This document shows, piece by piece, positions 21,701-63,062 of a DNA stretch of 64,000 bases. This DNA is from Branchiostoma floridae (lineage: Eukaryota > Chordata > Leptocardii > Amphioxiformes > Branchiostomatidae). A program made the translations under genes and the position numbers. The notes beneath the pieces were generated by a model. It worked only from the letters and a program-made list of their open reading frames with translations. It searched no databases and was not told the origin of the DNA. How positions within the stretch are numbered: position 1 is the stretch's first letter; each line of letters begins with the position of its first letter. Where the stretch lies: NCBI RefSeq assembly GCF_000003815.2, contig NC_049992.1, forward strand, positions 13,043,369 through 13,107,368, written 5' to 3'.

Positions 21701-22204
21701 CCAGCAGAGATTATGATACTAGAGTGTGATTCGTACATTTTATCATCAGGATCAGGTAATGTTAGAACTGAAGTAGAATTTTCCCAGGCACTCCAGTAAG
21801 TATTTCTCTACAGTAGTTCTTTGTTGGCATTTTGCTTAGCCAAGAGGTTTGACGTTAATTCGAGGAATGTCAACATTTATCCAGAACGCTTGTGTTCTCA
21901 CAGCTCACCAATTCAAATGGTAAATATTGAAACTCACGATGATATCAAGAGGAAACATTGGTCCTATATCAAAAGGATAAGCTTATCATGAATTCAAAGT
22001 GTATGTAAACAAATAGAGGCAAAACACTGTAGGAATGCTCATTCTAAGTTATACTACGTACGTGTGAAGAAAACACTCTAGAAAACAACAGATACAAACC
22101 TTCAGTGTGATCTCACAGCCTTGCCCCTTCCCAACAGTCATGGGCTCCTTGGTAAGGGTGAAGACCCCGTTAGGAGTCTTCAAGAACCCCTTCATTGGAT
22201 TCAT
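3750..22204 (-). CDS. FHAD1: FHAD1-like protein, paralogue A (complete, 12 coding exons, 887 aa)
   Basis: Exons in transcript order: 22100-22204, 14196-14384, 10358-10861, 9965-10100, 8668-9323, 8268-8504, 7885-7997, 7492-7651, 7099-7182, 5123-5227, 4649-4810, 3750-3962. All introns are GT-AG and the frame is kept throughout (2664 nt). Residues 1-98 form an FHA domain split after residue 35 by a 7.7 kb intron; HHAVI, FVLQDLKSQRGTYVN and LAPGDVIKF match FHAD1 better than other FHA families such as CEP170. Residues about 99-530 are Pro/Ser-rich and look disordered. Residues about 531-816 form a coiled coil (for example ELREREAEVELM and LEKEIINLKN). A basic C-terminus ends GNKGK. Human FHAD1 is longer (about 1,400 aa), so the coiled coil is shortened here or exons were missed. 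Two phosphothreonine-contact positions are changed (G-K for G-R, SQRGT for SxNGT). The promoter X-box suggests RFX control and a ciliary role, which is inference. Confidence 0.88.
4328..4613. repeat. MITE-like element in an FHAD1 intron
   Basis: The ends carry the inverted word GTTCTAGCCA: GTGTTCTAGCCAGTCCCCT on the left, AGGGATGTTGGCTAGAACCC on the right. The interior has mirrored AAAATTTT tracts. It ends 35 bp from the donor of the exon at 4649-4810. The inverted repeat is short, so this is a moderate call. Confidence 0.42.
5379..6931. mobile_element. Harbinger-like non-autonomous DNA transposon, copy 1
   Basis: A 1547-bp element (5382-6928) flanked by TAA on both sides (5379-5381, 6929-6931). 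The terminal inverted repeats begin GGGACCGTACGGC and match over about 42 bp with two differences. Just inside both ends are G-rich units of about 30 bp (GGGGGGAGGGCCAAGCAAAA-type) that point the same way at the two ends, unlike the inverted termini. The middle holds diverged repeats of a unit containing GTCAAGATTTCAAAATT and GGCGTTTCAGAG. No transposase is visible. A 3-bp TWA target and GGG-starting termini suggest PIF/Harbinger, which is inference. It fills most of the FHAD1 intron 5228-7098. Confidence 0.8.
10862..14195 (-). other. FHAD1-like A, intron 2
   Basis: A 3.3 kb intron between the FHA exon and the proline-rich exon. It holds a foldback repeat at 12593-12692 and otherwise AT-rich DNA. 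No exon with good splice sites and homology was found in it. Confidence 0.6.
12593..12692. repeat. Foldback repeat of about 100 bp
   Basis: The left arm begins ATCAGACCCAGC and contains CCCAACACCCTG. The right arm contains CAGGGTGTTGGG and ends TTGGGTCTGAT. The arms pair over most of their length with a few mismatches, as expected of a small MITE. It lies in an FHAD1 intron. Confidence 0.65.
14500..14600 (-). repeat. tRNA-related SINE remnant
   Basis: On the minus strand a perfect B-box, GGTTCGAATCC (14538-14548), follows a GC-rich stretch reading GATTCGGCTGCCCGGG. The flanking arms do not pair as a tRNA T-stem, so this is not a functional tRNA. A tRNA-derived SINE fragment is the best explanation. 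The limits are approximate. Confidence 0.4.
18964..19144. repeat. TACAGTCAAACCTGT-family MITE, copy 1
   Basis: The left end reads TACTGTCAAACCTGTAAAAG and the right end reads GCAGCTTGACTGTAC. The interior has the family words TGACCACCTCTACATA and GAGTGGTCTTCCAAG. About 180 bp, in FHAD1 intron 1. Confidence 0.6.
19811..19870. repeat. Perfect 30-bp tandem duplication
   Basis: Two adjacent identical 30-bp units, 19811-19840 and 19841-19870, each containing ATGACATAAGGACGAAGC. The lack of any difference suggests a recent event or an assembly stutter. Confidence 0.85.
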
Positions 22205-22800
22205 AACGTCTTGTATGGAACTGCTTCCGTGTCTTCAAGGTCCAAATTCCATAGCACCTGCACTGAACTCGAGACTTCCTAAGACCTTGGCGGTACAGTT
22301 GAGAGTGTCGTGAGACTCTTGAAAGCCCAACGGATTGAAAAATCGGTTAAAAAGGCGTCTTAGCCGGCCCTCAGAGGGTTTTGTCGAGTCTACCTGGCCG
22401 ATCCTTGCCTCTGCCAGCCACAATGCAAGGCGGGATCATGTGTCCCATGTTGGATACAACGCACACAATGGGGGAAAACTCCGATCAACAAGTTGACAGC
22501 GCAAAGGGCATGCGTCCCGCTACCATGGCAACACAGGTGACGGCCGCCCCGCTAGGCAGGTGCGCTGAGCAGCACACCTGTTAGGAGCGACGCTTTGCGA
22601 GAAATATACGCATTGCAGCTAGTCAGAACTTGCAAAGCTGTCATAGATTCGTAGGGACATACAAGTTACAGGTATACTAGGCATGCAAGTAACGTTACTT
22701 CTTGAATTAGGTACAACATAACAATACATAACGTTATATCTTCACTGAAAGGTGCTACTGACATCTCGGACCATCCCGGAGGACTGGCCATATAAACTTC
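22205..22800. promoter_or_regulatory. Divergent promoter between FHAD1-like A and PARK7
   Basis: The two start codons are 596 bp apart on opposite strands, so both promoters and 5' UTRs must fit here. The interval contains CpG-rich stretches around 22500-22620 and a perfect X-box at 22519-22532. No TATA box in an obvious position was seen. Confidence 0.65.
22519..22532. promoter_or_regulatory. Perfect RFX X-box
   Basis: GCTACCATGGCAAC fits the RFX consensus GYNRCC-N2-RGNAAC at every position. It lies 315 bp upstream of the FHAD1 start codon and about 270 bp upstream of the PARK7 start. RFX factors drive ciliary genes in animals, which suits FHAD1; control of DJ-1 by the same site is possible but unsupported. 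Confidence 0.6.
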
Positions 22801-25800
22801 ATGGCTGCAGCCCGCCAAAGTTGGAAGCTGCTATCCTCCGTCACAAAACGGGTGTTTTTCCCCGTAAAGCTGTCCCAAATAGCCTCGGCAGTTCCCTTCA
22901 TACATTCTATAGCTTCTCGTGACAAGTTTGAACGCCATTTTTCGACAGGTAAGCCAGAAATGCCCACAGAATCTATTAACTTTGTGGGGAGTATGAAGAA
23001 AACGCTTTTCTCGAGCCTTTTACGAGAGTTCAAAGGTCGGATCTGCCAAATGTATACGGGGATATTTATTACCTATAAAAAGTCTACATATATACACACT
23101 ATGCTATTTACTTATTGATGTATTTATAATTTTGCAATGATTTTCATGATTTTTGTATTGTTTTCAATAGTAATATCGAATCTATTTTGTCAACGTAAAT
23201 CCAACACCCCTACGTTTGGTGTGTTCCCTACCAGACAACATGGGTGACGAGGAGGTGACAGCGCTGGTGATTCTCGCCGAAGGTGCGGAGGAGATGGAGA
23301 CCGTAATCTCGGTCGACGTCATGCGCCGCGGAGGGGTGAGGGTCGCTCAGAAATTGTAGACAATCAAGGACTGAAAAGCACAATGTCATGTATTTGCTTT
23401 GCTCGTGACCTCAGAGAGCAAGCGCATCAAAACCCTTACGTTACAACATACCATGACTATGAGCTTTCATGTTGCCTATTCAGTTCTATTTTTGTTAGAT
23501 ACCAACAGTAAGTAGAATAGAAACAAGGGGATATGAAAAAAAAAATTCATTCAGGAGAACTAAGTATTATCCAATGCATCACAATGGCTTAACTCTTAGT
23601 CTTACTATCCAATTTGTTTTCGGATGCCCCTCTTCCATGATTATGAAGGGGGCGTGGTCATATAGGTCATCTGCGGGTATGACAGTCTGACTGTAACATT
23701 AGGAAGTTGAGTAGTTCACATTGATACAGAACATGCTGTCCAAAAGTCAATTCATATACATANNNNNNNNNNNNNNNNNNNNNNNNNNNNNNNNNNNNNN
23801 NNNNNNNNNNNNNNNNNNNNNNNNNNNNNNNNNNNNNNNNNNNNNNNNNNNNNNNNNNNNNNNNNNNNNNNNNNNNNNNNNNNNNNNNNNNNNNNNNNNN
23901 NNNNNNNNNNNNNNNNNNNNNNNNNNNNNNNNNNNNNNNNNNNNNNNNNNNNNNNNGCTCGCAAACATGTAAGCATCTTATGTAGCATTCACTTTCTTTG
24001 CAACAAGACATTGTGTATATACAATCTTACTAATGACATAATGAAACATGATTTCGGAAACGTCCATATCCAGTTGCTGAAATAACTGCTAGTTGGCATA
24101 TTTTATTACCTTGATGTCTAGCCATTGTTGATGTGTGATGAAACATGATTTAGCTCGAGGATATTTTATTACCTTGATGTCTAGCCATTGTTGATGTGTG
24201 ATGAAACATGATTTAGCTCGAGGATATTTTATTACCTTGATGTCTAGCCATTGTTGATGTGTGATGTATACTTAATGTTATTTATAACATGATGAAACAT
24301 GTTTTTGGATATGTTCCAAAATCATATCCAGTTGCTGGAATAACAGCTAGTTGGCATATTTTATTACCTTGATGTCTAGCCATTGTTGATCAGATGTGTG
24401 ATGAAACATGATTTAGCTAGAGGATGTTTTGTTGATATCATTCAGTACATGATGAATTTTTCACAAACATCACAGGTATGCCTGTTATGATTAAATGATA
24501 CTGTTGTATTCCCCAGGGTCCCTATGATGTGGTTGTATTACCTGGAGGACTAGGAGGGGCAAAGAACCTGGCTGCTGTAAGTTACAACTTGTCATATAAT
24601 ATACTTGTTGCATATTATCCAACTCTACTATAGCTGCCCAATGTCTTTTGACCTCTTCTTGAGGAGCTACTAGCAGACCATTGATTTAGAATTGAAATTT
24701 GCCATTGAATTGTACATCACATTTTGTAAACAGTATGACCACCATCTTGTTTCCCTGTGACCTCTGTAGTCCCCCAAGGTGAAGGAAGTGTTACAGGAGC
24801 AGGAAGGGAAGGGATCCCTGGTGGCTGCCGTGTGTGCAGGTGAACGCTTCTTCTTGCTCTCCTTTTTTTCTCAAATTCAGTTGTCCTAACGGGCAAGTAC
24901 ATGCCAAAACCAATTTTTCACTTGCCCAGAATTCGAATCACATTTTCTGTATCTGTATCAATATAGCCGGTATAACCGCCCTTCGGCGTGACCAAGGAGG
25001 TTATATTCTGAATATAACCTCCTTGGCGTGACACACCATTTTCCTAATGCATTTTCACTTCCAGCTATGGAATTCTTTTATTATTGGCTCTATTTTTCTG
25101 TATTGACCACTCAATGGTTGATGCCATTACTGTGAAAAGTAACATGTACATTTATATAAAGATGTCACTCATGGAAAAATCATATGTGCCCAATATGACA
25201 TGCGCTTGCCAGATAGGCGCTTTACTTGCCCTGGACAATCGGGCTAGTGGACTTGTCCAACCCTGTCTTCTTACACATGAAATAAGATGTGAAATAATCT
25301 TTGACAGCACTTTTTTTTAACCTTCTTAACTTTTTTATCTGTGGAGGGCATTGCAATGTCTTTTTTTTTTCAATTTCATACAAGTTGACAAGGTTGCCAA
25401 CCCTTTGCCTCCCCCAGGTCCCACAGCGTTGGTGAGCCATGGCATCGGGAAGGGCAAGACTGTCACCTCTCACCCCAGTGTGCAGAAGGTTATGGAAGAA
25501 GGTATCGTCCAAAGTTTTAGCTTCTAGAGTTAAATACATCTTTAAAAAATGGTTCTGAAGGGAGAAGACATCTTTGTTGTACTTTGTGTGACCCTCACTT
25601 TTTCTCTTTTGACCTCAATGAAAAGCAGAATTTCTGAATGAACAAACAAACATCATCATCATATTGTTCCGCATCAGTACTGCAGTACTTTGCTGGGGTG
25701 TTAGATTCAATATCCATGTACATGAGCATAGTAGATAATCATTTGTATAAAGGTGCAATGTTTAATAAAAGTACAAAGTCTTCCCACTCTAAAAGTGCAT

Positions 25801-26016
25801 GTAGGACTCCTCAGTAGTGTCTGTGTTTAATTTGACCTGTCCTGTTGTGTTCCAGCTGGCCACCCCTACACAGAAGCCCGTGTGTCCAGAGATGGCCACA
25901 TCATCACCAGCAGGGGGCCCGGAACCTGCTTTGAGTTTGCTCTGCAGATCGTAGAGACGCTCCGAGGCAAGGAAGTGGCTGACAAACTGGTCTCTCCCAT
26001 GCTGGTCAAACTGTAG
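22801..26016 (+). CDS. PARK7: PARK7 / DJ-1 (7 coding exons; exon 3 mostly in an assembly gap)
   Basis: Exons: 22801-22948, 23235-23335, [gap]-23968, 24517-24576, 24770-24839, 25418-25501, 25856-26016. DJ-1 is a small cysteine-dependent redox and glyoxalase/deglycase-family protein of cytosol and mitochondria. Visible signatures: [15 protein letters not shown] with the conserved Glu, [11 protein letters not shown], the nucleophile elbow VAAVCAGPTAL with the catalytic Cys, VTSHP with the active-site His, and [12 protein letters not shown]. The first exon adds about 51 residues in frame before the usual start (ATG at 23240-23242): Arg/Lys/Ser-rich, no acidic residue in positions 1-40, then RHFST resembling a mitochondrial processing site. 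Starting at 23240 gives about 190 aa, the usual family length (human 189); the long form is about 241 aa if the hidden exon has the usual size. Only the last four codons (ARKH) of exon 3 are visible, ending at a GTAAGC donor. Confidence 0.9.
23763..23956. other. Assembly gap (194 N) hiding most of PARK7 exon 3
   Basis: A sized run of N. Exon 2 ends in phase 0 with MRRGG, and the visible end of exon 3 (23957-23968, ARKH then GTAAGC) also ends in phase 0. In DJ-1 proteins about 34 residues separate these points, so about 90 hidden coding bases fit in the gap. Confidence 0.85.
24066..24425. repeat. 63-bp tandem array with flanking partial copies
   Basis: Units start at 24101, 24164 and 24227, exactly 63 bp apart. 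Each begins TTTTATTACCTTGATGTCTA and carries TAGCTCGAGG. The third is truncated, and another diverged copy starts near 24358. The array is preceded by CCATATCCAGTTGCTG, the start of a longer interspersed repeat seen again at 24325-24360 and at 60757-60836. It lies in PARK7 intron 3. Confidence 0.85.
24992..25026. repeat. Near-perfect palindrome in PARK7 intron 5
   Basis: CCAAGGAGGTTATATT and AATATAACCTCCTTGG flank a 3-base centre. GGCGTGAC occurs on both outer sides (24985-24992 and from 25025), so the hairpin sits inside a duplicated word. The preceding TATAGCCGGTATAACCGCCC looks like the tail of an interspersed repeat. Confidence 0.75.
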
Positions 26017-26414: not shown

Positions 26415-26420
26415 ATTAAA
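26415..26420 (+). other. Polyadenylation signal candidate for PARK7
   Basis: ATTAAA about 400 bp after the stop codon, followed within 30 bp by a strongly GT-rich stretch (GGTGTGTTCTTGTTGTGTTG), the expected downstream element. The 3' UTR would be about 26017-26440. Confidence 0.5.
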
Positions 26421-28994: not shown

Positions 28995-31900
28995 CTAGAG
29001 GCTGCTGCCTGTCCCCTCCTCCCCCATGATGACCTTTCTGTAGAGGCGGTTCATCTGTTCCAGGAAGATAAAGGTGATGACCGTGTGGGGGCCCAGACGG
29101 AAGTAGTATGGGGTGAACCCCTTCCACAGGCTGAACAGCCCCTCCTGTCTGATGACCTTGTACAGCACGTCCAGCGCTCCGCGATACTCAGCCTTCCCAT
29201 CCACTACCTTCATGTTCTGTATCCTGTACATAGCCGGCCAAGAATATGTTATCTCTTATGATAAGTAATAGGTCAAACATGCAAGTGTCAAGTATATGGT
29301 CTAAACTTACCCAGTAGCTGTGTTAACTTTTTTTTTCATTGTTTCCCTGTGATTTGGTTTTTTCAATGGATATCTAGCTACATTAATCTAAAACTTTTGC
29401 TGTGTATTGTGGACGTACAGTAATATGCTTTTAACTACACGCAGTGATGTTTGGAGTTGAAAGCAACTTTGCGAGGCTTGACATCTACAAAATAATTTTT
29501 CACATAAACTGGTGTATGTCCTCCATTGTAATCACTGTGGCAAATTTTAACAATTCAGAACATAAACACCAAATTACCCAAAATTTTCCCATTTCATGGT
29601 AGATTCTACCACAAAAAGACCTTTGATGGATCAATAAATGTTACACTCTTTTGTTCAATCAGATGCCTGATTTATATACAAAGTTTGGTGACTGACAGGT
29701 TGAGTACTGACCTGGTTTTCGCAATGTCCACTGGCATGGAGGCAGCAGTGGTGACCAGACCACTGATCATACTGGCAAAAAAGTGACACAGGATGTTGTC
29801 ACGAAACCAACCTAAGAAAACAAACAAATAATAACAAAAATAAGTGAGAAAGCATTGATGGACATTTCACATCCAGGTAATAAGATGCACTAGTACAAAC
29901 TTTTTCAAGCTACTGGATCAGTTTAATTGTTCAGATGTTTCAGATACCTCAGTCACTGAGGAAAGAGTGGATGCTGTCTGAAATGTCTGGCCATTTATAA
30001 AACTTACCAAGCTGCTTGAGTTACTTTTGAATTGTGCATTAAAAAGTAAGTGGGAAAAGTACCTATCTCAATCTTTTGATACAAGGTTGATAGCAAGTTT
30101 TATTTATCTATTTTTTACACAGAAAGTGGTTTTCAATATAGTTACAGGTAGTCCAAAGCTAAAGCCTAAAGTAAAGGTATTTCAAAAAACAAAGACACCT
30201 ACCTGTACCCAAGAGGAACTGCTTGGCTTGAGAGTAAGATGCCAGCTGAGCTGCATTCACCACAACAGCTCTGGACACCGTCGGGCCACAACCCTGGAAC
30301 ACAAGCAAAACTGATTAACACCAAGGTGTTTGTGCTATCTAAGACACTACATTTAGTAATTAAGAAAGTCAAACCTGTCAAACCTGGTCGCTCAAGGGAC
30401 TGAGCAAATTTGACCACTATGAACTATAACTTCAAGGCCACCCTAAATTTATTGGTTGTTTCACAGATTTTTTCAGAAAAAAATTCAACTGACAGGTAAA
30501 AACAAAATGCACAAGTAGTTATGAACATGAATAAGACTACAGTACAACTTGACTTTTTCAATACTAATCAAAGACTTCTGGTTTCATCATTTTAAGCAGC
30601 ACAAATATCTGCAAGCTGTATTTTACTACCTTTAGCTCTGGGACACAGCAAGGGACCTCACCTTTCCCTGTTTCATTCCTATTGCCCTATTGTTTTCATG
30701 ACAATCTATCTATTCTGTATTATAGGTACTCACTCTCCATAAAGTGAAGAGACCTTCTTCCCTAGTTATCCGAGCCAAGGCATTGAAAACACTGCTGTAG
30801 TTCCTTCTTTCAGCTACCGGTAATCTACAATTGGGGGTGAAAAGACATTCAACCATTTGAAAAACATATGACATGTTTGAGCTTGTGCAGTTTGTTGCTC
30901 ATCACATTAAGACTTGACATACCAAAACTGGTTCAGTGTGATATTTTTAAGCCATCAATAGAGTACAAAAGATAAGATGAAACATGTACAAAGCAGTAGG
31001 AAAAATACAAATGTAACACAAAGCCAGAAGGAAAATGACACTGTTTATGTTTATCAAGATGCTGACCAGAGTTATATTTTTATGTTGTATAAGAAATACA
31101 TGTACTATAAATTCATAATCAAACAAGAAAGCAAAGAAGGTCCTTGCCTTCCATCTGCTGTCATCCTTATAAGTGAGATCTCTGCAGGAGTTCCTACAAA
31201 TGCACCAATTGCACCTGCTGTCATACCTGTGGACAAGAAACAACAGGTCTAAGCTATAATCAAATACTGGATACAACTACTATAATGTATTGATGTATTG
31301 TCTAAGGCGGGTATTTTGTCTTCCAGCCTATTCAATCTAACCGCCTTATTGCAATGTCTCATATATATAGTATCATCATTCTCACAACACTTCAAAGTGT
31401 CTAAGCAGTGTACACACCTATCCCTGCTTTCATGAAGAAGTTAGGGGGCTGACCATTCTTGCTAAATTTCTCAAACAGAATGGTGTAGATACCCAGACGG
31501 GTGGTGGTGTAGGAGGCTTGTCGTAGAAGCCCTGCAGACAACCTGGAGAAAGAAAAAGCCTCACCAGTACTGTACCATATGATAATGTGCTATGAACGTG
31601 GTGTATAACATTTGAGGTAACAAAGCCAACACACTTGTTACAATTTCATTTATTTCTTGAACCTATCAAAGCAAACTTTTGTAGTAGGATCATCAGAAAA
31701 TGGCAACTGTTAGCAAAACTTGACTCCACAAACAAAGAAATCTTGCTACAAGCAGAAAAAGTCCTTCTTAACTTATGTATATATCTACTCATTAGATTTG
31801 TTATACTACTTATAGTTAAGAATAAGAATAAAGATGTCAGTTGCACTTACCCTGTATACATGCCAATAATGCCTTCAGATCTCAATATACTTGACACAGC

Positions 31901-48808: not shown

Positions 48809-50239
48809 GTCCGGATGTTGTCCTGTTTTGTGTTGGGCAGACTGTTTCCGGGACGTCCCGTTTCCCTCCAGAATTTACATAAGGAGGGTAAATACACCCA
48901 AACTAGCCATTTGCTGTTAGGTGTGCGATTTGCCGTTACGGGTGTGGTTTGAAAAAGGTCTGTATGTATTTTCTGAAAGACTATCAAGACTATTCTTGGC
49001 TGAAAACGGCTGAATTAAGCAATTTTAGACAAAAAAACTAGCAGACTTTTGACTTGTGGGAGGGGGGCAAGTGATTCACTTACATGACACCATGCCTCAG
49101 GCCGTAGAACTTATTAGCAGAGTTGATTGCAAATTGTCTGGATGTTGTGATATCTTAGATCTTTGATTATTTGAAAATTCAGAAGTATTACTTTTTTATC
49201 TTTCATCACAGGAAATGATTTATTAATCATCTGAAATTAATTGGAGGAGGAATTTACATTGACTATTTCCTTCAAATTTTTATTCCAAGATTCTTTTTCA
49301 GTAAATATGTTGTTAAAAAAACGTTCAGCAATGTGATTATTGTTGTTCATTGGTAATGTAGGTGTTGGATGTCTTTTAATCATTGGCACACAATTTGTTT
49401 ACATTCTGGTGGTGTGTATTTGAAAGCTTCGTTTTCTTTTGTGCTGCAAACTTACAGTACAGAGTAGGCAAGTTGTGCTTTCATTCACCAGTAAAAGGAA
49501 GCTACAAAAGACATTTGTTATTTCTAGTGTTAATTCTGTTGTGAAAAGACTGTGAACTTGATTGCCTTACCTGTCTGTAGATTTTAGTACTTACATGTAT
49601 TTTCTTTGCTGATTTACCGTCAATATACTCGTATTCTTATGTAAAACTCTTGGTGACAGGTTTATACAGCATCTTTCATAAAAGTGTTCAAAATATATGA
49701 AATCTTCAGTAGGCAACTACATGTGTAGTCATAAGAAAGCATTTCTTGTACTGTACATGTTGCTTCTTACTAATCTTAGTATAATCGATTCTATTGCAAT
49801 TTGGTTCAGAGCAAATAACAATTTTCGGGTAGTTTTCATCCAGCTGGTCCAACACAGTCAACATCAGAACAAAGACTCTCCTAGCCAGTCATATCTTTGA
49901 TATGTGTCCCTGCTTCTCTTTTCCTTTGTGTGTGGGACACTGACCAATTTCCCTTGGGATGGAGCCCATGGCAAGTTGATTGTTTTTGTATAATGAACAG
50001 GTGAAAAGGAAGATGCAGATTCATGTCATCAAGATCCTGAATCAACAAAGATCAAACCAAAACTTTCCAAAATGCTGATTGCAAAACCTGATGGTGGTTT
50101 TGTTCTTTGCTTTATTGGACAATTTTAGCATCATATTTAGCAAGAACTGCTGGCCAAATGTGGTGTGGATACAGATTGACTTTTTGTCCATTCTACACAA
50201 ATGTAAACCATGCATATTTTTTTCTGTTTCCTTGTGCAG

Positions 50240-50392
50240 CAAACAAGAAGCAGTGGTGCAGCAGTTGCCCATAACACACGCCTCCGCAGCCTGCGGGAGT
50301 GCAACTGCCTGAGGTCCCGGATACGCCAACTGCGGGAGCAGACCCGCCGACAAGTTTCCAGGATTTCCAGCGCCAACAGACAAGTGCGGGCC
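50240..50392 (+). other. 5' UTR part of the SPSB coding exon
   Basis: A pyrimidine-rich acceptor (TTTCCTTGTGCAG, ending at 50239) begins an exon that is open in frame upstream of the start codon. Human SPSB1 starts with the same MGQKV residues, so the upstream codons are taken as untranslated leader. An upstream untranslated exon is implied. Confidence 0.55.
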
Positions 50393-53300
50393 ATGGGACA
50401 GAAGGTGTCTGGTGGGGTGAAGACGGCAGGGCCAGGGCGGGAGCCGTCACTAAAGGCTCTGAACTCGGACAGGGACTTGTTACACCCCGACATGCAGAAG
50501 CCTAGCCGACTAGATATGCTCCTTGATATGCCACAGGCGGACAGGGAAACACAAGTCAAACACGCGTGGAACAACGAAGATCGGTCACTGAACATTTTTG
50601 TGAAAGAAGACGACAAACTCACCTTCCACAGACACCCGGTTGCTCAGAGTACGGACTGTATTCGTGGTAAAGTTGGGTACACAAGAGGACTTCATGTATG
50701 GGAGATTCACTGGAGCACGAGACAACGGGGGACGCATGCTGTGGTAGGAGTAGCGACAGAGCATGCCGCCTTGCATTCGGTAGGGTACCAGTCTCTAGTG
50801 GGGAGCAACGCAGAGTCGTGGGGCTGGGACTTGGGAAGGAACAAGCTCTACCACGATAGTAAAAACAACCCCGGAATCACGTATCCTAGGACATTGAAAG
50901 CGGATGAGAACTTTGTGGTACCAGACAAGTTCCTTGTAGTTTTAGACATGGATGAGGGCACAATCAGTTTTGTAGTGGACGGACAGTTCTTGGGCATCGC
51001 CTTCCGTGGACTGAAGGGAAAGAAGTTGTACCCAATTGTCAGTGCAGTGTGGGGACATTGTGAGATCACCACCAAGTACATCGGAGGCTTGGATCGTAAG
51101 TATACCTAACAGAAACCTTTTATGTGTCTACTTTTTTTACAGATGTCCNNNNNNNNNNNNNNNNNNNNNNNNNNNNNNNNNNNNNNNNNNNNNNNNNNNN
51201 NNNNNNNNNNNNNNNNNNNNNNNNNNNNNNNNNNNNNNNNNNNNNNNNTTAACATGTGAAAACCATGGCATTGCAAAAATTTTAGGAACAAAATGACCTT
51301 AAAGAATACTGAGGTAGTGTACTGTAAATCCATACAGCTTCATGTTTTTGTCATACCCTGCTGATAACTCGTGCGCTGCTATGATATGAATTAGACAAAT
51401 GGTGAGAGATGTGCTTCGGTCTCATGGGAACAGGGGGCCCACTTCAGTTTGCCATGTATGTGAATTGTGAAACCCTCGCACGTGCTCGTGGTGATGCATA
51501 ATCTCAGACCCTTCAGAACCGCGTGGTATATTTGTAGGATTACTTAGATGATGAAGAATTCACATGCCTGGTGCTGTGACAGGGTGGATTGGAGGGCACA
51601 GCTGAAAGGACAGCTGGGAAAATAGCAGTAGGGGCAACAAAGGCCAAGCATTTCACCTAATGGTCCATTTGGACTTAAAAGAAAGTTGTCATTTTGTAGT
51701 CATGGCATCATTTTGAGATGTTATAACTTGCTTTCTTCAGAGAAAGCTCTTTGGCAGTATTTTTTTATCCTTGCCTTTTGCCTATGAAATTTATGATTCA
51801 ATACATTCTGTCATAACCTAATAGAAGAAAATTGAGTTCAAGCATGAATCTTTTAGTGTGAACTGTAAAGACTGCTTTCCATAGAGAAGAGCTTCAAGAA
51901 AGAAATCAAATACTTATAGGCTAGAAAGTAGAAACAGGCTAGAAAGTAGAAACAGTGTGACTTTCAGTTTATTGGTTTATATCTTCATAGTAAATTACCG
52001 GTTTGGAATCTTCATCTTTGTGCAGAAAACCAACTAAACCTATTGCGAGGGGAGTACTACACTCTACAGTGTAGTAGCCTGGTATCCAGCAGTATTATAG
52101 TTCCCTGGTCTCTTCAGTCTGCATTTGTGGAGAGGACAGAAGAGGCTTGGAGCTATGATACGGCTGGATACCAGGCTAACAATGTAGGCCAACAATTCTG
52201 TGGTTCCATGTAGTAGAGTGTGGACTGAACAGAAGACAGACAGCTGCAGTGACAGGTGGTGTCTTCTTGTAGCTGTAGGGGTTCAACTGATTACATGTAT
52301 TATTAGTTGTGATGCCCCATGTGGGTTCTCATCTCATCTTCTACTCAGCCTCTTATTATGCCTGGATTGGAAAAAGCTTTTTTTCTTCTTGAGTCACTAA
52401 GATTATTAAAAAACTAAGATATTGAAAAACTCTATCTAACATTTAAACGTATATAGATTTTGTCATGTTGATGGAGATAAACACATTATAAGAATGACAA
52501 GTCAAGGTTCACCTGTATATTTTAGTGGACACAGGTTAATGGTTACAGCAAGGGAATGGGTTACATCTTTTTATACAACATTCATGTCGGTCAAAGTGAT
52601 GAAAGTTTAAAATGAATTGCAGCTGCAAGTTCAAAAGTTCTCTTGGTAGATATTATAACAGTGAACATGCAATGCCCGAGTAATATTCTATGTAATCCCA
52701 GGCAGTCTGAATGGGAACGGGTTTTCTGCGCGTTAAAAATCTGTGCGCACGTTAAAAATCTGCGCGTTAAAAAACTAAGTTGTGCATTGAGAAATTCTTA
52801 GATGTAAAATCATATAATGGGGTCACATTTTTCATCCTGTTACCTGAATTTTTGGTTTGAAAAGCACCTAATTGTTAGGTCCCTTGGGAATAGGCTAATT
52901 TGCATATCCAAAAGATTTCAAAATCACTTGAATTAGACACAAATACATGGAAAAATTACTAGTGTGAGGCTTTATATCATAATATATAACTGCTTGGGGC
53001 TTTTTTTCCATTCTACAAGGTTCATTTCATCTTTTCTCAAGCAGATTGTTTCACATGCAAATATCAACCTTTGTTGCGCGTTAAAACTTAATGTTTAAAA
53101 ATCACTTTAAAACTCCTGGAAAGGGATATTTGTACTCTAGAATGCAACAATATGATACTTAATTTCATCTTGTGTTATCTTCTTCAAGCTTTTAAGTTTA
53201 AAACTGCAAAAAAATTTTCAAATCCCCAGGGAATCAGCTAATTTGCATATTTTAACACACAGGTTTTTAACGCGCAAGTTTTAACGCGCACAAAACCCCA

Positions 53301-59498: not shown

Positions 59499-62400
59499 CA
59501 AACACACCAAAAATGAAACCTTCTTTGTGAAGGTGTAACAACCCACCACTGTTGATAGGATGGTCATGCTCCAGCGTGTACAGTGCGCTGCCCTTCCCCT
59601 CCACCATACGGATGTCCCACAGTTTCACTGTCCTGTCTGTGGATGCAGTCACCAGCAACCAATCACAGCCGGTGTTGAACTCCACATGGGTCACCTTTGA
59701 CTTGTGTAGTCGATGCTGCCACAACTAGGAGTGAGAAACAAATTCAGTTGACTTATAGCTGCTATCAGTCTGTATCTGTATCTGTATCTATATAGCTGGT
59801 ATCTATAAGTCTTTATATCATTGTCATTAACGACTGGACACTTGAATCTGTGCAAAAAAAGTTTTTAAGTTTTCCAGTAAGTACAATTGACCATGTTTAA
59901 AGTATGAAAGAAGCACTCTCACAGGAAGACATTACCAAAAAAAAAAAGAGTCGACCAAGACCTGTATGTGATAGTTCAGTATCCTATGCAGGTAGAGTAT
60001 GCAGATAGAGTAGAAGACACTTTTTCTATCTATTGGTAGTAAAGAAAAGTAAAAGGTAATAGGTTCCTCACCTTTTCTCCCTCTGTGTCCATCATGACAA
60101 CATGACCCTGACTCTCTCCTGCCACCAGCATCTTGTGTGGAGTGTTCACATCCGCTGCACAGTACCAGTTACTGCAGGGTACAGTAGTTATGGGTTAGTA
60201 AGTTTTTCATCATCTATCTACTATTTTGTGACTATCATACTACATTTCTGGGGTTTCTTTCTGACATACCATTAATGACTGAGCACTGATTAATTGTAAA
60301 ACATCTTGCTTAATTTTCTGGTTGGGAAAGACAAAGTTCCTTCCTGTCTGTCAAAAACAAATTGGAACTTCATGACAGGAAACTGATTAAAAAGTTGTTC
60401 TCAAGGATAAGTGTCTGGCAGCCAGATTTAACAATGGAAATCAACAACAAGCAATCCTAAACAATGAATGGGACACAAAAAAGCGTGTGTCCTACCATAG
60501 TCTACCAATGAATTAGAATATGACCTGACATGTATACCTCCAACTGTGTGTGGATAGAAAGTTCCTGTTGTTTCTGCCGTTGAAGTCCAGCAGGTTGACA
60601 GTACCATCCAGCTGAGCTGTGTATACCTGGCTCTCATTCCAGGGGGAGAACTTCAGCGCAGACACATAGCCACCTGGACCAATCTACAAAAGGAAATAAA
60701 TATATAAATTATGGTTGACACCAAAAATTAGTTACTCATGCAACTGGTTATGATTTTGGAAAATCATATCCAGTTGCTTGAGTTACTACTTCTTGGCATA
60801 TCTTATTACCTGGATGTCTAACCTTCATTGATGTAAATTATGGTTTATGTTATAAGTTTATCAATATTCAACTTTTTCTCTAAGCAGGATTATCCAAGAG
60901 AGATGCATTGTAATAAAAGATAGAGATTATGTGAAAGGATTTGCTAGAGAGCAAAATATGTTGTGAAATGAGGACAGCTAGGAATAATATAGGGACAATG
61001 AAGCAACTGAGCATTGATAGGTCAGAAGTGTTTCAGACAGCTTATGTATATTTGACATGGGATAGAATGGCTATTAAAAACAGTTGGAAAAAAAACTGAA
61101 GAAAAAACTACACTAACCCCTTGAATGAAGCAGTCCATGCCAACTTTCTCGAAGTTCCACAAGATGATGTCACCACCCTTGGACCCAGCTGCTACCAAAG
61201 TGGGGTGGGAGGGGTGCCACTCTATGACGGTGACTCGTCTGTCAAACGGACTGGCTGTACGATACAAGCCCAGGGATCGCAAGGTCCGCAGGTACGGCTC
61301 GTGGGGTGATGCATACACCTGGGGATGGGAATGACACATGGACGGGTTTTATACGTTGGCTATCAATATCTGCACTTGATCAACAAGAGTGATTACCAAA
61401 CAATTGTTTACAAAAATAATCAAGAATTCTTTTTTAATCGTGGTTACCTTCCCATTGTTATTCAGTCCCATGGCAGCTCTGTTGAGAGAGAGAACGATGT
61501 TGCTGCTCGACTTCCTCCGAGTCACCTCAAACAACACATCCCCTTCCTCCAAATTCACATACTGCTGGGTCATTTTCTGTTCCTTACGACTTTTAGCCTC
61601 CTTCCCTTTCTTGTCTTGTCCTTTGGTCTTCCCTTTCCCTCCTGTCTTTTTGCCACCTGACGGAGACCCTGTGTTTGAAGATTTCTTTCCACTTGCCTTT
61701 GTTGATGACCTTGAAGAACTAGAACTTTTCTTCACCTTGACTTTTAGACATTCCATGACGGGAGTACCTGAACCTGCCTTCTTCCTTTGCGCAGGTGTTC
61801 CCTTACTTGTTGAAGCTGTTGGTTCAGTTGATTTTCTTTCTGCTAACATCTTTGGTGTCTTTGGACTTTTCTGGTATCTGAAAGCTGAGAGGCCTTTCTT
61901 TACTTCCTCCAGTTGTGAGGCTGGGTTGTCTTGGTCAGAATCTGAATCACCAGACAACTGTGATGCCTGTTTCTTTTCATGCATTTTCCCATTTTTCTTG
62001 TCAAGCAGTTTACCATTTTCTTCAGTCGTTGAATCTGTCCTTTTCTTACGTGAGATACCGGGGGTCACATCTGCTGTGCTTGTTTTCCTGTTTGTCACTG
62101 CACTTGTTTTCCTTCTTCCACTCTCACCTTCTGCAGAAAGCTTTGCAGATTTCTCTTCGACTTTCTTTGTCTTGGAAAGCTTCAACTCTTGTTTTGACAT
62201 TGAAGCACCCTGGCTGCATGTACTGTCTGGGTCGTCTCCATCGGAATCTGTTTCATCCTCAGACAGATTTGATTCCTGATCCTTTGCATGCTTTTTACCA
62301 TTCCTCTTTCCATGATTTTTGCCATTGACCACAGGCTTTGCTGAAGTTCCATTCTTCAGGTCCTTGCTACAAGTCTTCGTCCTTGCAGAGGCTGGACTGG

Positions 62401-62530
62401 TCCTACTGGATGATCTTTTCTTGGCTTTACGAGGCAGAAACTCAGGATTCTCAAAGTCATCTTCATCACTACTGGATGGAGTATCTGAGAGATGCTTCCT
62501 CTTGTTGGACTTCTTGGATGCCGGAGCCAT
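57064..62530 (-). CDS. DDB2: DDB2, UV-damaged DNA binding protein 2 (9 exons, 749 aa)
   Basis: Exons in transcript order: 61448-62530, 61118-61318, 60538-60683, 60072-60171, 59547-59724, 58667-58812, 58136-58300, 57808-57853, 57064-57248. The total is 2250 nt in frame. DDB2 is the WD40 subunit of UV-DDB, which finds UV photolesions in chromatin and links them to the DDB1-CUL4 ligase. The propeller (about residues 362-710) has [53 protein letters not shown] (Arg549, at the position of human Arg273) and [13 protein letters not shown], whose F-Q-H triad (611-613) is the lesion-probing hairpin of the human protein. Residues 1-361 come from one exon and are Lys/Ser-rich with acidic clusters, far longer than the human tail (human total 427 aa). 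A basic extension follows the last blade. Start ATG at 62530 begins MAPASKK; TPI is divergent upstream. Confidence 0.94.
57323..57539. repeat. MITE-like element upstream of the last DDB2 exon
   Basis: Inverted ends ACCAGGGCTGTCTC and GAGACAGCCCTGGT (14 bp, perfect), with GTACAG nearby on both outer sides. It spans about 217 bp in the last DDB2 intron. Confidence 0.55.
59093..59182. repeat. Long hairpin in a DDB2 intron
   Basis: Two 35-bp arms (59093-59127 and 59148-59182) pair with about two mismatches around a 20-base loop. The arm core is CTACCGGGGCTCCTTACACT and its complement. Confidence 0.8.
59425..59496. repeat. (CA)n microsatellite
   Basis: About 70 bp of nearly pure CA repeat with two AA interruptions, in the DDB2 intron just downstream of the exon at 59547-59724. 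Confidence 0.95.
60757..60836 (+). repeat. Diverged copy of the CCAGTTGCTG repeat
   Basis: AAAATCATATCCAGTTGCTT, then TTGGCATATCTTATTACCTG and GATGTCTAAC, follow the order of the repeat at 24325-24400 with scattered differences. It lies in a DDB2 intron. Confidence 0.6.
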
Positions 62531-63062
62531 ACTTACTGTTGTATACACTTAGTTTATCAGGATCATATCTGAAACATCAAATTATGATTCAATGTGAATA
62601 TGTTGTTGCAAGATTTTTTTGTTAATACAGCAATTCACAGCATCATCATCATGACCAAGGAAATTATATGAGTACCGTTATACACGTGGGTGCACAATGG
62701 GTAGGCTTAACTTATCTGGATGTCCTTGGCTATGTTCCTGGGACGAGGAATAATTTGCAAACGCTTGCTTGCGCCTTTAATACCCATACTGGTACTTCCC
62801 CCTCCCCCATATGCGAGCAAACATCACACAGCGCTAGCAGTCAGTACAGATCATGATGACTTTGCAGCCGAAAGGGATCCTACCGCTATCCACGAATAAC
62901 TCCACATACTTCTACGTTACACAAAGTCTTCTACACACACTTACCTTTGTTCTTACGACGTCAACTGCGACAAAAGGCGACTGTGGTGGCTACTAGCTGG
63001 ACAAATGCACAACCCTTTGTAGTTACACAAGCTGATCTGCATTTGTTGTGTAAGGCGAATGT

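Follow-up and report, generated by a model that had tools for sequence, protein, structure and literature searches.

The DJ-1 gene and its neighborhood

The window, by which we mean the whole 64-kb stretch of DNA analyzed here, carries on its plus strand a DJ-1 gene of which six exons are visible, counting the leader exon discussed below, and one more is unseen. The usual DJ-1 start exon (23235-23335, plus strand) contains the ATG at 23240 (gacaacATGG) and encodes the conserved body up to residue 32. Downstream of it, an assembly gap of 194 bases (N, 23763-23956) most likely holds the unseen exon, which would encode about 34 body residues, and the translated exons then continue on the plus strand with one of 20 residues (24517-24576), one carrying the VCAG motif (24770-24839), one of 27 residues (25418-25501) and the last one, which ends in the stop codon TAG (25856-26016), with a candidate poly(A) signal at 26415. 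Outside the gap the DJ-1 body is intact. Since 32 + 124 of its codons are visible and human DJ-1, with 189 residues, has about 34 more, a short form of 190 amino acids, gap exon included, is plausible.

The gene is a member of the DJ-1 (PARK7) family, its domain scoring above the curated cut-offs. Namely, the body as joined from the visible exons, a sequence short of one junction Ala as well as of the gap exon, matches PF01965 at 1.9e-35 with 122.5 bits (cut-off 26.6) and TIGR01383 with 156.9 bits (cut-off 131.25). When the start exon is compared with solved structures, the best matches are DJ-1 / Parkinson disease protein 7 chains, which we take to be human (best E-value 5.1e-06), and these matches leave the leader itself uncovered. 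Both the Cys of VCAGPTA and the Glu of AEGAEEME are present in the translated exons; we assume that the former is the conserved redox Cys and nucleophile, and that the latter has its usual role as part of a family motif. In the intron before the exon at 24517, two identical copies of a 63-base unit stand head to tail (24099-24224, plus strand), with a third, partial copy after them.

Other genes are visible in the window as well. Minus-strand exons at 28995-29812, which include EGLFSLWKGFTPYYFRLGPHTVITFIFLEQMNRLYRKVI, presumably belong to a mitochondrial carrier, one close to the 2-oxoglutarate carrier SLC25A11, and we claim no functional link between them and DJ-1. A SPRY-domain open frame (PF00622, 4.6e-20), which we take to be like the SPSB family, occupies 50207-51109 on the plus strand, with a 100-base N gap after it at 51149-51248. 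Finally, the minus strand has at 61349-62548 an open frame of 399 residues with a high content of Lys and Ser, for which a Pfam search gave no match at E 0.01.

The leader exon and its splice

The usual DJ-1 start exon is preceded by a 148-base exon at 22801-22948 (plus strand), whose ATG at 22801 opens 49 codons followed by the first base of Asp50. The exon ends at 22948, in phase 1, with the donor CAG|GTAAGC, and intron 1 (22949-23234, plus strand; GTAAGC...CAG, 286 bases) closes with the acceptor CTACCAG|ACAACATGG, which opens the exon 23235-23335. The joined frame thus reads 49 leader residues, then Asp-Asn, and then the usual DJ-1 Met. In other words, the proposal of a preliminary description of this DNA, namely that an upstream exon joins the DJ-1 start in frame, is confirmed by the joined translation together with the rank of the donor, which is second among the 3829 GT sites of the plus strand when scored with a position weight matrix built on assumed frequencies. 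As this donor also outscores the gene's other four donors, all further downstream, the stretch 22801-22948 is probably a genuine first exon, translated or not. The nearest in-frame TGA 5' of the leader ATG lies at 22759-22761 (plus strand) and M1 is the sole Met of the leader, and therefore 22801 is the sole AUG able to start it.

If the exon is not translated, one arrives at the main rival to a presequence combined with a second start. In this view the exon would be a 5' untranslated first exon of the ordinary kind, open in frame by luck, with transcription starting after 22801 or the ATG being skipped, and with cytosolic DJ-1 as the only product. We regard this alternative as possible, if rather doubtful, and count in its favor that in human PARK7 the start exon is preceded by a first exon that does not code.

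Presequence-like composition of the leader

The leader contains four Lys, four Arg, two His, one Asp, one Glu, eight Ser and two Thr, and its two acids are confined to residues 41 and 44. These counts agree with the earlier characterization of the leader as basic, Ser/Thr-bearing and free of Asp and Glu in its first 40 residues. The mitochondrial processing peptidase (MPP) site is defined by an Arg at position -2 or -3. As the preliminary description had noted of the leader end RHFST, it fits R-x-F|S: there is a single processing-motif match in the leader, R-H-F|S at residues 45-48, starting at residue 45, and the predicted cut falls four residues ahead of the native Met.

Residues 1-18 have a hydrophobic moment of 0.505 and a net charge of +4. 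Projected on a helix, their charged face lies at 80 degrees and their hydrophobic face at 273 degrees if LIVFMW are counted (262 degrees with A and Y added), which places the charged and the LIVFMW faces approximately 167 degrees apart; the fraction of permutations of residues 1-18 that match the moment is 0.031, and the fraction that match the separation of the faces is 0.021. This amphipathic signal is limited to about the first 18 residues and does not extend over the whole leader, which counts against a presequence. A single-sequence AlphaFold2 model of the 49 residues, which at a mean pLDDT of 74.5 and a pTM of 0.28 is weak evidence, has helices at 3-19 and 24-48. Judged from its sequence and from this model, the leader has the traits of a candidate mitochondrial presequence, being N-terminal, basic and acid-poor, with a predicted amphipathic helix at 3-19 and a putative R-2/R-3 MPP site. 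An untranslated first exon would leave unexplained why an acid-free, basic amphipathic helix and a processing site stand just before the native start. A reading of the leader as an ER signal peptide was also considered and was rejected on inspection alone, the leader having no long hydrophobic core.

Chance expectation

How often would such a leader arise by luck? Our null model consisted of 2,550,000 random first exons, generated as first-order Markov sequences from the make-up of 22501-22948. A phase-matched leader of at least 49 residues occurs in 59,741 of these sequences (2.3%), and one of at least 40 residues in 91,703. What is more, the two strands of the window contain 509 donors of at least 5 bits, and 24 of these are preceded by a phase-1 leader of at least 40 residues, the DJ-1 leader among them. 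Both the 2.3% and the 24 of 509 speak for the untranslated exon, as far as the open frame by itself is concerned. The picture narrows with composition: leaders of at least 40 residues that have six or more Lys or Arg and are free of Asp and Glu over residues 1-40 number 5,990 in the 2,550,000 null sequences, and those of the same class which also carry R-x-[FYL]|[AS] within the last eight residues number 88, by criteria that were chosen after the leader had been seen. A smaller run of 200,000 sequences gave equal rates for the leader of at least 49 residues and for the acid-free basic leader.

In the window itself, all three phases taken together, there are 69 leaders of at least 40 residues in 1527 donor-phase pairs. 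Two of them are acid-free and basic, three have the R-3 motif in their last 12 residues, and the DJ-1 leader is the only one with both, again by post hoc criteria. Against a presequence it must be counted that, at 3.5e-5 per gene and an assumed number of approximately 20,000 genes, luck alone would still supply roughly one leader of this kind per genome. The in-frame leader with its presequence-like make-up is real and hard to obtain by chance.

Signals for transcription and translation

A TATAAA at 22791-22796 (plus strand) begins 10 bases 5' of the leader ATG. Were it to function as a TATA box, it would place the transcription start within the leader, near 22819-22825, and the leader ATG would be lost. 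On the other hand, the plus strand of the 64-kb window contains 67 TATAWA, and this one is therefore perhaps a chance match. The region 22401-22700 is GC-richer, which fits start sites upstream of 22801. It lies between the DJ-1 gene and a divergent open frame on the minus strand (22100-22204), which begins approximately 600 bases from the leader ATG and reads MNPMKGFLKTPNGVFTLTKEPMTVGKGQGCEITLK, then GTTTGT. We take this frame to resemble the beginning of FHAD1, an FHA-domain protein; a Pfam search with its 35 residues gave no match. The DJ-1 gene and this divergent gene may share a promoter region. A scan for bacterial promoters and terminators, which is irrelevant to a eukaryotic gene, found two promoter-like sites and one terminator-like site against shuffle means of 1.7 and 0.8.

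Start-codon context bears on which AUG ribosomes use. The context of the leader ATG is weak (aacttcATGG, with T at -3), whereas that of the usual ATG at 23240 is good (gacaacATGG, with A at -3 and G at +4), the downstream in-frame AUG thus being better placed than the one at 22801. Coding bias by codon position was sought in the leader as well, using G+C and RNY, and none was found, in a sample of 49 codons that has little power. Namely, the G+C at codon positions 1/2/3 is flat in the leader (0.51/0.47/0.49) and uneven in the DJ-1 body (0.67/0.43/0.66), while RNY stands at 0.16 in the leader frame versus 0.20 and 0.33 in the other frames, a measure that discriminates poorly, given values of 0.29, 0.11 and 0.28 in the body. 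This result lowers our confidence in a translated leader. That said, it does not decide the matter, because 49 codons give little power and because presequences evolve fast. The TATAAA so close to the ATG, the weak context of that ATG and the flat codon positions are nevertheless what one would expect of an untranslated exon.

Discussion

The explanation that we prefer, with modest confidence and on the strength of the sequence features described above, is that an ordinary DJ-1 would carry here a conventional cleavable presequence, and that a second start would give the cytosolic form. We infer a start of transcription, translation, import, cleavage and two products along the following lines. 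Messenger RNAs starting upstream of 22801 would yield a precursor 51 residues longer, whose basic amphipathic helix, at about residues 3-19, would direct import via TOM/TIM23. MPP would then cut after Arg45-His46 and an Icp55-type aminopeptidase would take off Phe47, leaving STDN-MGDEE..., which is almost the cytosolic protein with four extra residues. Either some ribosomes would scan past the leader ATG, or shorter mRNAs would be used, and in both cases translation would start at 23240 and give normal cytosolic DJ-1. Leaky scanning is proposed here because of the poor context of the leader ATG and the good context of the one at 23240. The preliminary description had proposed a mitochondrial-type leader through which one gene could make two addressed proteins. 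The in-frame, presequence-like leader bears out a part of that proposal, while the TATAAA at 22791, the context of the leader ATG and the codon positions count against it.

Besides the untranslated exon, one can imagine that the leader is always used, which would make this DJ-1 essentially mitochondrial and the ATG at 23240 no separate start, as in NgDJ-1 of Naegleria. The same presequence-like features of the leader would be compatible with this, and the Naegleria protein is described as exclusively mitochondrial in the part of the report available (PMC9035749). We consider it improbable here, however, as the ATG at 23240 is in good context and that of the leader in a weak one, and as mammalian DJ-1 is described, in an excerpt, as predominantly cytosolic (PMC3856108). 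Finally, an extension that is translated yet carries no mitochondrial signal, being a chance N-terminal proteoform or one with another address, has a parallel in human non-AUG starts, which give extended proteoforms without evidence of selection according to the portion available of PMC9789052, but is very improbable, given a leader composition that resembles presequences.

How does a presequence combined with a second start compare with what has been described for other DJ-1 proteins? The body of the amphioxus protein is like that of vertebrate DJ-1/PARK7, as the PF01965, TIGR01383 and structure matches indicate. The difference lies at the N-terminus, where the human protein is without a conventional presequence: it 'contains no mitochondrial targeting signal', and its first 12 residues failed to move GFP into mitochondria, with data not shown there (excerpt of PMC3542337), while a cryptic signal in its N-terminus is exposed upon destabilization or unfolding (excerpt of PMC8645234). 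At least as far as these excerpts go, human DJ-1 agrees with the earlier statement that vertebrate DJ-1 has no cleavable presequence. Among other eukaryotes, Naegleria gruberi NgDJ-1 is, like the long form proposed here, a mitochondrial, apparently leader-cleaved protein of the DJ-1 superfamily, whose migration at approximately 26 rather than 30 kDa was attributed by the authors of that study to probable cleavage of the leader; unlike the gene studied here, it belongs to a protist, is found in mitochondria only, and comes with no second start mentioned in the part of the paper available (PMC9035749). In Arabidopsis, AtDJ1B and AtDJ1C have organelle leaders, that of AtDJ1B being predicted (PMC3160306, in part). 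What is more, AtDJ1B (AT1G53280) is one of 68 listed genes for which Ribo-seq and N-terminal peptides support a downstream start, in its case at Met48 with an acetylated Ser (PMC8770321, in part). Its architecture, an organelle-type extension with an internal in-frame start giving a leader-less form, is nearly that of the amphioxus gene, the differences being that it is a tandem double-domain plant protein and that its predicted target is mitochondria and/or chloroplasts (PMC3160306, PMC8770321, both in part). In the available portion of PMC6356872 we found no mention of a transit peptide of AtDJ-1B.

Outside the family, human genes such as RFK acquire, by an alternative start, an N-terminal extension that adds a mitochondrial signal absent from the short form; the extended amphioxus form would be alike in this respect, but the genes are other ones, and PARK7 and DJ-1 are absent from the main text of that paper (PMC12718117, in part). 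As regards animals and other DJ-1 proteins described, the following picture emerges from partial texts. At 186 amino acids, the cloned Tribolium DJ-1 leaves no room for a leader (PMC8750249); in Drosophila, DJ-1beta was directed to mitochondria by attaching to it the leader of cytochrome oxidase subunit VIII (PMC3616925); of the two C. elegans proteins, one is cytosolic/nuclear and the other cytosolic (PMC3856108); Dictyostelium DJ-1 is predicted to be without a signal and is found in the cytoplasm (PMC5665451). PMC2654450 mentions amphioxus in a reference title only. Among the literature matches listed, which do not extend to annotated animal protein databases or to the bulk of subscription papers, we found no animal DJ-1 with a presequence, and one with a leader may already be present, unremarked, in a public gene model. 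The rarity of an addressed DJ-1 that the preliminary description had implied thus has to be qualified: across eukaryotes such a protein is less unusual than that, given the Naegleria and Arabidopsis precedents as far as they are described in the excerpts, whereas for animals the implication is in keeping with those literature matches. The mechanism is, in other words, already known in kind, and its use by an animal DJ-1 would be new.

In some inherited forms of Parkinson's disease, human DJ-1 is lost. Whether the protein acts inside mitochondria, and in what way, is disputed, with wild-type DJ-1 placed partly in the matrix by one study (PMC6641658) and destabilized mutants imported by a cryptic signal according to another (PMC8645234), both available in part. 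Tentatively, and with less confidence than in the presequence and second start as such, we suggest that this animal orthologue of human DJ-1 may carry a genuine cleavable presequence, that matrix and cytosolic proteins may be made from the one gene by leaky scanning or alternative starts, and that the way in which vertebrate DJ-1 enters mitochondria, weakly and depending on its conformation, would then be a remnant left once such a leader exon had ceased to be translated. If true, an animal DJ-1 that brings its own address for the matrix would amount to an experiment of nature: a function of DJ-1 in the matrix would seem to be ancient and under selection, and the matrix and cytosolic pools of the protein could be cleanly told apart.
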